In this document: positions 12,278 through 33,321 of the stretch, piece by piece
How the letters are laid out: every line of letters starts with the position of its first letter
How positions within the stretch are numbered: position 1 is the first letter of the stretch
Source: a bacterium BMS3Abin04
GTDB taxonomy: Bacteria; Bacteroidota; Ignavibacteria; Ignavibacteriales; Melioribacteraceae
Direction of reading: 5' to 3'
DNA length: 34,815 nt
Assembly (NCBI GenBank): GCA_002898175.1
Contig: BDSW01000041.1
Coordinates: 1 to 34,815 of the forward strand
Position numbers and translations under genes: made by a program
Notes under the pieces: model-generated
Told to the model about the DNA's origin: nothing
Seen by the model: only the letters and a program-made list of their open reading frames with translations
Database searches by the model: none

Positions 12278-12505
12278 TTATTTACCCATTTATATTTAGA
12301 GTATTGTTTTGTATTGAGCAATAGCAAGAACAAGATTAAGAGCAAAAAATAAAATAGACTACTTTGGTAAGTTAAGACAATGAAAGATACAAATTTCGAG
12401 TGAAAATATCTTTACCGCGAATATCAATAACAATTTAGATTTTAGTTCCCGAAATATACAGCGTATCTCCCGTTTACCCCATGCGGAGGAGTTCGCAAGG
12501 TTTTA

Positions 12506-12600
12506 ATATAACGATGTTGCCGATAAGCTGCTGCCCTACTTGTCCCGCTGTTTTTGCGGGAAAATAACGATGCAGCATTGTCCGACAACACCTAATTATT
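12506..12600. repeat. Imperfect hairpin element, attC-like (candidate)
   Basis: Arms GTTGCCGATAAGCTGC (12516-12531) and GCAGCATTGTCCGACAAC (12572-12589) pair with one mismatch and two bulged bases on one strand; internal hairpin tcccgc/gcggga at 12543-12561; ATATAAC box at the left end. Confidence 0.4.
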
Positions 12601-12781
12601 AAAATTATTTTTTTATAATCGAACTACTGTGAACCTACAATTCAGTACGAACGACGGAAAACCCCTTTGAAATTACAAGTACAACATAGCGTACCGCTTT
12701 CCGGCTTAGCTCAACACAGGATTATATCGAAGTCCGGCTATCACCGGATTCGGTATGAATCATTTATAACGTTATACCTTT

Positions 12782-13015
12782 TTATAAATCAAATTCATCC
12801 GCTTTGACATTGGCAACTTTTTTAAGTGCTTTCTTAAATTTAGTTTTACTTGCTCTTTTGGCTCTATTTGCTATATATTCTTCGGTCATAATTGCAGAAA
12901 TTTTTTCAGCTAACGCAGATGATACTAATTGATTAATAGAAGTATTTTCTTTTTTAGCTAAGTCTCTAGCTTTTTTATGTAATGATTCTGGTAATCTTAA
13001 ACTAATGGTACTCAT
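12782..13015 (-). CDS. Ribbon-helix-helix/HicB-like antitoxin of a type II toxin-antitoxin pair
   Basis: 77 aa; MSTISLRLPESLHKKARDLAKKENTSINQLVSSALAEKI RHH-type N-terminus; 4-nt overlap with the upstream PIN gene. Confidence 0.85.
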   Translation of the reverse strand: MSTISLRLPESLHKKARDLAKKENTSINQLVSSALAEKISAIMTEEYIANRAKRASKTKFKKALKKVANVKADEFDL

Positions 13016-13440
13016 AATTTCTCTCCAATTTTTTTTAGTAACTCTTTAGGAGTAAGTGCTTTTAAATTAAATTTTTCTATATTCTTGAAATCCTTTTTGT
13101 TGAAAGTAATTACATAATCACATTCAGATTCAACAGCTAGTTCAAGAATCATATCATCTTTTAGGTCCTTTAGAAAAGGTCTCCATAGATAGAATATTTT
13201 TCTTTTCTTCCCAATTAAACAGATATAATCTAAAATATTATTAATTTCAGTGAAATTAAGTTTAATTTGAGACTTACTCCTTTTTATAACATCTTCATAT
13301 TCTAATATTAGTGGTACTGAAATAAAAACACTAAAACGACTATCGTCAATAATTGACAATAGCTTAAAAGAAAAACCATTTCGTGATTTTAATGCAGAAA
13401 CAATAACATTAGTATCAATAACAATTTTTAGTTTTTTCAT
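13012..13440 (-). CDS. PIN-domain toxin of a type II toxin-antitoxin system
   Basis: 142 aa; IVIDTNVIVSALKS, EYEDVIKRS, LKDLKDDMILELAVESECDYVITFNKKDF carry the expected PIN acidic residues. Confidence 0.9.
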   Translation of the reverse strand: MKKLKIVIDTNVIVSALKSRNGFSFKLLSIIDDSRFSVFISVPLILEYEDVIKRSKSQIKLNFTEINNILDYICLIGKKRKIFYLWRPFLKDLKDDMILELAVESECDYVITFNKKDFKNIEKFNLKALTPKELLKKIGEKL

Positions 13441-13475
13441 AAAGGTATTATATGCAATACCAATAAAAAAGTCAA
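13441..13475 (-). promoter_or_regulatory. Sigma70-type promoter of the PIN/antitoxin operon with palindromic operator over the -10
   Basis: On the minus strand: TTGACT (13475-13470), 17-nt spacer, TATAAT (13452-13447), ATG at 13440. Palindrome GGTATT-N6-AATACC at 13444-13461 overlaps the -10. Confidence 0.7.
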
Positions 13476-13571
13476 GAAATTAATTTTACGAAGGTATAGC
13501 GGCGTTGCAAATTATATGTTTCCGATAAATTTAACAAACGCAATTTTATAAACAAATTTGAGGTATATACG

Positions 13572-13691
13572 ATGTACACAGAAATAATCAACCGTATGAA
13601 AGAGAATATGCAATTGCATGGATTTTCTCAAAGAACTCAAGAGACATATCTTTACCGGGCGCAAAAGATAAAAGAACAAATATGTGAATAA
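13572..13691 (+). pseudogene. Truncated tyrosine recombinase/integrase N-terminal (SAM-like) fragment
   Basis: ATG ORF encoding MYTEIINRMKENMQLHGFSQRTQETYLYRAQKIKEQICE then stop; resembles the N-terminal arm of phage/integron-type integrases, with no catalytic domain following. Confidence 0.6.
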
Positions 13692-13783
13692 TACTGCCCG
13701 ACAGGACTTAATATAACTATACTTTAATCCCCAAAGATTATTCAGTAACAGCGAAAGAGAACTTTCGCTTTACAAAACGTTTG

Positions 13784-31902: not shown

Positions 31903-31946
31903 TTTTAATTTCCTTATGTTATTAAATCTAAATTTATTTTTAATTT

Positions 31947-32084
31947 CTTAATCTTAATTTGTACTCATTCCCTTTAAGCAGATTAAGATTATGAGTAAGA
32001 GTATGATTAAGAGTTCTAACCCTATCCTCTTAATCTTAATTCTTACTCTTCTTCAGTAGCCGGATTATGATTAAGAGTATGATT
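31947..32084. repeat. Cluster of degenerate inverted/direct repeats of a gattaaga/gagtaaga unit
   Basis: gagtaagagtatgattaagag (31993-32013) faces ctcttaatcttaattcttactc (32027-32048) as an imperfect inverted repeat; related copies at 31947-31973 (reverse) and 32062-32084. Confidence 0.65.
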
Positions 32085-32085
32085 G

Positions 32086-33321
32086 TTAAATAACATGAAC
32101 AACCAATCCGTCTCTTAGTTTTGGCTCAAACCAAGTCGACTTTGGCGGCATAGTTTCACCGGCATTTGAAATATTTATTAAATCGTCAACCGAAACAGGG
32201 TACATAGAAAATGCCACGACCGCTTTCCCGCTATCGACCAGCTTTTCCAATTCCTCCGTTCCTCTTATACCACCGATAAAATCAATCCTATCACTAGTAC
32301 GCGGATCTTTAATTCCCAATATTGGATGAAGCAAATAATTTTGAAGAATTCCTACATCAAGGTTTTCACCAATTGTATTGCCGCTTTTTACATTTTCATT
32401 AGGTTTAAGTAAATACCATTTACCGCTCAAATACATAGATATACTTTTTCTTGCCGGAGGAGAAGCGGGACCCGGTTGCTCGATGTTAAAATTAGTTTTA
32501 ACTTTTTCTAAAAATTCGCTTTCACTATTTCCATTTAGATCAAACACAACTCTGTTGTAAGGGAGTATTTTAAGCTGTTCTGCCGGAAATAAAACGGCAA
32601 GGAAAAAATTATATTCTTCCTCTCCGGTATGATTTGGATTAGCTTCCATTTTCACTTGCTGAGCGCGGGCAGCGCTTGCTGCTCTGTGGTGACCGTCGGC
32701 AATGTAAAGTTTTTCTGCTTTTCCAATTTCACTTTGAATTGTTTCGTTATATTCTTCAGGGACTACCCAAACCGTGTGCCTAATAGAATCGTTTGAAGTA
32801 AAGTCATAAACCGGATCGATTTCATCCATAACTTTATTTACAATTTCATTTACGGCATCAATTCCCTTATAAGTTAAAAATACTGCCCCGGTTTGAGCTT
32901 CTGTAGTTACAATGTGATTTGTTCTATCGTCTTCTTTTACTTTTCTCGTTTTCTCATGCTTCATTATTACATCCCGGTTATAATCATCAACCGAAAATGT
33001 TGCGGCAATACCGACCTGTGTCTGGTCGCCCCAAACTAATCTGTAAAAATAAAAGCGAGGTTCTGCATCCTGAATTAACGGAGCTTCTTTCTTAATTCGT
33101 TCTAAATTTTCTTTAGCTTTTTCATACACTCTTTTATCGTAAGCATCAATATTTTTATCTAATTCTATTTCAGACCTGGTTACTCTTAAAAAATTAATGG
33201 GGTTGTCTTTTGCCAATTCCGCCGCCTCTTTTCTATTAACCACATCGTAAGGTACACTTGCAACCAAATGCGCTACACGAGGCTCCGGTCTAACTGCTTT
33301 GAAGGGTCTGATAACTGCCAT
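32086..33321 (-). CDS. DUF1015 family protein
   Basis: 411 aa; MAVIRPFKAVRPEPRVAHLVASVPYDVVNRKEAAELAKDNPINFLRVTRSEIEL...LYIADGHHRAASAARAQ; upstream of serC on the same strand. Confidence 0.93.
   Translation of the reverse strand: MAVIRPFKAVRPEPRVAHLVASVPYDVVNRKEAAELAKDNPINFLRVTRSEIELDKNIDAYDKRVYEKAKENLERIKKEAPLIQDAEPRFYFYRLVWGDQTQVGIAATFSVDDYNRDVIMKHEKTRKVKEDDRTNHIVTTEAQTGAVFLTYKGIDAVNEIVNKVMDEIDPVYDFTSNDSIRHTVWVVPEEYNETIQSEIGKAEKLYIADGHHRAASAARAQQVKMEANPNHTGEEEYNFFLAVLFPAEQLKILPYNRVVFDLNGNSESEFLEKVKTNFNIEQPGPASPPARKSISMYLSGKWYLLKPNENVKSGNTIGENLDVGILQNYLLHPILGIKDPRTSDRIDFIGGIRGTEELEKLVDSGKAVVAFSMYPVSVDDLINISNAGETMPPKSTWFEPKLRDGLVVHVI

Follow-up and report, generated by a model that had tools for sequence, protein, structure and literature searches.

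A probable integron toxin-antitoxin cassette bordered by relics of IS91-type units in the Melioribacteraceae bacterium BMS3Abin04

On contig BDSW01000041.1 of the Melioribacteraceae bacterium BMS3Abin04 the truncated start of a tyrosine recombinase gene, a toxin-antitoxin pair transcribed away from it and a hairpin beyond the pair lie side by side, which raises the question of whether they are the remains of an integron with its own integrase or were brought together by some other route. The window, that is the whole stretch of 34,815 nucleotides that was analysed, carries them between genes for an M1 peptidase and a GYD-domain protein:

12278 to 13783, no strand: insertion-bearing interval, from the M1 peptidase start (12277) to the stop of the GYD gene (13784)

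The gap between the two genes is 1506 bp in the window vs ~180 bp in G002, a genome of the same genus (locus L155, where the GYD match ends at 2479 and the M1 ORF starts at 2659). G002 is a clean empty site for a block of ~1.3 kb, which is an insertion between what are otherwise close neighbours, a point not raised in the first-pass annotation of this DNA; the edges of the insertion are left approximate because the intergenic DNA has diverged between the window and G002. We consider it probable that the block is a single integron gene cassette for a PIN/ribbon-helix-helix toxin-antitoxin pair, bracketed by the relics of two IS91-type insertions. An Rfam search of the region gave no match. A terminator-like hairpin sequence, AGCGAAAGAGAACTTTCGCT, at 13750-13778 is found again at 4 other places in the host genome, and between ORFs further along the window, at 31946-32091, there are a strong palindrome and two imperfect direct repeats of 55 nt.

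The PIN/antitoxin pair described by the first-pass annotation, running from 13440 to 12782 on the minus strand, is present as two overlapping ORFs, with that of the toxin upstream:

13012 to 13440, minus strand: predicted PIN-domain toxin, 142 aa, intact ORF (PIN_3 70.6 bits, cut-off 27; TIGR00305 54.1 bits, cut-off 29.15)
12782 to 13015, minus strand: predicted ribbon-helix-helix antitoxin, 77 aa, intact ORF (HicB-type ribbon-helix-helix family 31.6 bits, cut-off 21)
13444 to 13461, no strand: operator-like palindrome GGTATTATATGCAATACC, 18 bp, directly upstream of the toxin start

A PIN protein above the curated TIGR00305 cut-off with a ribbon-helix-helix partner, which also has weak RelB/DUF6290 similarity, is the composition of a type II pair, and the palindrome is found upstream of the pair in all 12 of the 12 homologous loci examined. 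By family membership the antitoxin would neutralise a PIN ribonuclease, the PIN protein being a presumed toxin, and the cassette would be expressed from its own predicted operator; judging from its sequence, the pair is probably still a working addiction module under that operator.

Homologous pairs with 71-77% DNA identity occur across ~14 genomes of the family. At locus L012 the pair (1435-2082) lies between attC sites at 1096-1382 and 2106-2297, at L021 it likewise lies between attC sites, and at L020 a single attC adjoins it; the same ORF unit is therefore, on the evidence of L012 and L021, a gene cassette elsewhere. Several homologues (about half) lie outside any attC context, and the suggestion that an integron origin would be undermined were the pair found in relatives without these flanks has thus met with a mixed answer. 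Toxin-antitoxin systems have been reported from the cassette arrays of integrons and CALINs (PMC7923331), and the pair resembles these in having its own promoter/operator and being carried as a cassette, but it differs from them in its damaged attC and in being the one cassette left of its array.

The hairpin previously noted 3' of the pair is real, as on either strand the stretch 12500-12610 folds more stably than every one of 200 dinucleotide shuffles (z -3.9 and -4.4), and it falls within a longer feature:

12506 to 12711, minus strand: attC relic of the cassette (covariance model R1, 44 bits), with attC and cassette genes both read on the minus strand

Covariance model R1 was made from an alignment of 16 attC sites from relatives, all of them ordinary attC sites and none of them IS ends. 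The consensus stem of this clade family consists of 16 pairs, double compensatory changes being seen in 11, and its 5' arm contains an unpaired base, so that together with the R''/L'' and L'/R' boxes it has the single-strand stem, compensatory changes and extrahelical base by which attC sites are recognised. When two class 1 integron plasmids were scanned the only matches at E <= 1 fell in the cassette regions, and these were weak (17-18 bits). An unfiltered scan matched 12506-12711 with an E of 7.2e-8, the match reaching to ~12711 and so beyond the bounds first given for the hairpin; the lack of an attC covariance hit, which had been named in advance as counting against an integron, did not come about. 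Across the host genome the model finds 8 sites at E <= 1, with the window site in eighth place (E 9.5e-5), and in a control stretch of 10 kb within the window no match fell below E 0.8. With default filters the covariance search missed the window site, so that the case for an attC is built on the scan without filters, that of the whole genome and a comparison of the boxes. In that comparison the site scores 35 vs a null maximum of 27 and a maximum of 29 in the rest of the window; its L'/R' boxes (12508-12536) are well preserved, and the R''/L'' half, which overlaps sequence derived from IS91, is degraded. Furthermore the minus-strand box sequence CAGCTTATCGGCAACATCGTTATAT matches CAGCTTATCGGCAGCCCGTTATAT, the end of an attC (L106 3855-3957) that neighbours a genuine IntI gene of G001, a genome of the same genus. 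Judged by the model and the boxes, the hairpin 3' of the antitoxin is a damaged member of the clade attC family and the relic of the cassette's own attC.

The other side of the cassette is less clear:

13494 to 13512, minus strand: candidate L'/R' half of a second attC (box score 29; covariance model 11.4 bits, E 0.1)

This stretch, 5' of the cassette and not listed as a half-attC in the first-pass annotation, has a degenerate R' (GCTATAC) and directly abuts the leader of an IS91-type unit; its box score equals that of the best control, and it resembles the L' boxes of attC sites in the host. It is suggestive only of half a second attC. A separate attC scanner was used as support only, given its background of ~10 matches/Mb at score 16, and none at 17, in ~0.4 Mb of shuffles.

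Genuine integrons are common in the order, with IntI above the curated cut-off in 56 of 160 of its genomes and in two copies in G001, and there are previous reports of integrons in Ignavibacteriae and Chlorobi, and of clusters of attC without an integrase (PMC9024848). In the host genome no TIGR02249 match was found at E <= 1e-70 (the assembly being 91.8% complete, in 391 contigs). The host's 7 other attC-model matches are all on contigs other than the window's, namely C113, C174, C91, C270, C15 and C188, with two of them ~0.6 kb apart on C174. AttC sites without an integron integrase are termed CALIN or single attC in the terms of IntegronFinder (PMC9024848), and the block is like these in being an attC-bearing cassette in a genome without a detected IntI; it differs from a CALIN in that both of its borders carry IS91-type relics, and, as a CALIN has at least two attC close together and no intI, the one scoring attC and one uncertain half in the window fall short of the two-site rule. 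A second PIN-type cassette (130 aa), at L040 7291-7683 in an attC array of G090, is nearly the same as one at L106 5135-5527 beside the genuine IntI of G001, and is apparently shared between the genus of G090 and that of the window.

On either side of the pair the DNA resembles parts of one kind of mobile element:

12664 to 12785, plus strand: 3'-end relic of an IS91-type unit (73% over 124 nt to G090, E 1.5e-13)
13506 to 13612, plus strand: leader and first codons of an IS91-associated recombinase gene (78% over 109 nt to contig C9 of G090)
13572 to 13691, plus strand: 39-aa N-terminal stub, by sequence that of an IS91-associated tyrosine recombinase (66% over 29 aa to the G023 recombinase)

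In an intact unit in G023 a 289-aa recombinase (TIGR02249 195 bits, cut-off 265) precedes a transposase of the IS91 family (NF033538 363 bits, cut-off 125) with Y2_Tnp and Zn_Tnp_IS91 domains. No Y2 transposase gene with Zn_Tnp_IS91 occurs in the window, which carries relics only and no intact IS91 family element. The 3'-end relic, a second palindromic element that the first-pass annotation did not list, has an inverted-repeat stretch at 12694-12715 and a terminal attC-like hairpin at ~12714-12777; it ends in AACGTTATAC, adjoining the cassette, and it interrupts the cassette's own attC. Similar 3' ends are found in G023, G039, G087, G090 and G067, each of them abutting cassette genes. The notion that the hairpin at 12703-12777 is a mere cassette repeat was dropped, as the same end is found downstream of transposase sequence in G023, G090 and G039. 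In G067 one internally deleted copy retains both the recombinase start and the 3' end, and thus the two fragments in the window belong to one kind of element.

The presence of such relics on both sides of the pair, together with the attC-like hairpin at the 3' end of the unit itself and the occurrence of the pair outside attC contexts, would suit a reading in which an IS91-type element alone moved the pair, by one-ended or composite transposition, and in which the similarity to attC is simply that of the element's own end. We regard this as unlikely: the boxes at 12508-12536 match attC sites from the arrays of genuine integrons, the model that detects the site owes nothing to IS ends, and L012 and L021 carry the pair between ordinary attC sites.

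The 39-aa stub ORF is present as described. Its match to the Pfam family Phage_int_SAM_4 is weak (18.2 bits, below the cut-off of 27), and a tblastn search with the stub against phages and plasmids gave nothing useful. Against the full-length G023 tyrosine recombinase it scores 42.7 bits, so that ~43 bits for an IS91-associated recombinase stand against <= 25 for the best collected IntI ORF, a comparison that is approximate as a few of the collected IntI ORFs are truncated or mis-picked. At the DNA level the G090 match runs through a recombinase frame that is followed by an IS91-type transposase remnant. The recombinases of the IS91-associated group are without the ~30-residue insertion present in IntI proteins, and a survey of tyrosine recombinases describes the catalytic-domain insertion specific to integron integrases as essential for integron function (PMC8138268). 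By its nearest relatives, then, the stub is the start of an IS91-associated recombinase and not of IntI.

This bears directly on the first-pass proposal of a decayed mini-integron, with the stub as its own intI, an attI-like spot and one retained cassette. Part of that proposal stands, as there is an attC relic after the 3' end of the toxin-antitoxin cassette, there are genuine integrons in the same genus, and the order and orientation of the parts agree with it. The eroded intI does not stand: leader and 5' coding sequence match an IS91-type element in both DNA and protein, the full-length proteins closest to the stub are of the non-IntI kind that had been named as counting against the idea, and where a complete integron has an intI with the IntI-specific insertion there is here a stub of the IS91-associated type. 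Furthermore a unit of this kind also accounts for the second palindrome, which is its 3' end. No attI was identified, and the half-attC and IS91-type leader account for the spot in question, 13494-13571; the locus is accordingly probably not a mini-integron with its own integrase platform. The divergent order looks like that of an integron because a unit of the IS91 type has this orientation at an attC; G023 and G090 show the same, with an ordinary attC upstream of the unit. A mini-integron is thus a very improbable account of the block. Least credible of all is a chance likeness, with a chromosomal toxin-antitoxin pair beside unrelated hairpins, for whilst half of the pair's homologues lie outside attC contexts and terminator-like hairpins are common, the site's E value holds across the whole host genome, 12664-12785 and 13506-13612 are both homologous to one element type, and the site is empty in G002.

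Under the preferred reading, that of a cassette bracketed by IS91-type relics, the cassette would have entered the chromosome between the M1 peptidase and GYD-domain genes within integron-derived, attC-bearing DNA, and on the minus strand it would begin with the half-attC (13494) and finish with its own attC (~12777 to 12506). The border relics would derive from an IS91-family unit with a tyrosine recombinase and a Y2 transposase, of which the leader and 39 recombinase codons remain on one side and the 3' hairpin end on the other, the rest having been deleted. All of the fragments would be accounted for if IS91-type units had inserted twice, at the attC sites on either side, and had then suffered internal deletions; that there were two separate insertions, and the order of events, is what we infer from their arrangement. 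The cassette is probably no longer moved efficiently, because the R''/L'' half of its attC has decayed and the host genome yielded no IntI, and its excision would have been lost.

The wider question is how often such units and attC sites meet. Distant IS91-plus-recombinase units lie among attC-like sites in G411 and G215. In G023 an array (L053 235-9898) with 8 attC-model matches within 10 kb, one of them truncated, holds RelBE, PIN, HigBA and SIR2-type cassettes together with the intact unit, and no TIGR02249 match above cut-off was reported for that genome. Beside an attC array in G215 (L136 6308-7216) there is a 302-aa integrase (TIGR02249 223.6 bits, cut-off 265) without the IntI insertion, possibly an unusual array integrase. 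Among public homologues a recombinase lies upstream in 73 of 80, and an attC-like site within 2.5 kb in 1 of 80 by the attC scanner, which may overlook attC sites of other types than those found in this clade; on this count we rejected an association with attC throughout the IS91-plus-recombinase elements. We would tentatively suggest, whilst holding it somewhat less likely than its converse, that an IS91-family lineage with its own tyrosine recombinase and an attC-like 3' hairpin regularly resides at integron attC sites, either by targeting attC or by travelling as cassettes, such that single-strand transposition is partnered with single-strand integron recombination, with two relics of this in the window.

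Insertion sequences that target attC sites are known from the IS1111-attC group, the transposase of which is of the DEDD type and unrelated to the HUH/Y2 transposase of the units described here. A published precedent is ISCR28, for which a 2025 paper describes attC sites at the end of or just after an IS91-like gene and suggests passive shuffling as cassettes (PMC12772301). By that description the likeness is that the gene for an IS91-like transposase ends within an attC or next to one, and because of this precedent the association of IS91 with attC is not wholly new; the units described here differ in having an upstream tyrosine recombinase and in lying in arrays of toxin-antitoxin and defence-type cassettes. 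What this clade adds to the known association is the recombinase that goes with the units and the repetition of their relics; the recurrent association of such units with attC is mildly new, and as an integron remnant the block itself is ordinary.

The finding accounts for an integrase stub that is easily misread and enlarges the known set of integron remnants by one damaged cassette, and the broader point is the frequency with which IS91-type units are found at attC sites in this lineage. If these units target attC or ride as cassettes, they would provide a transposon route by which integron genes reach other places, and may be one reason why cassette arrays lose function.
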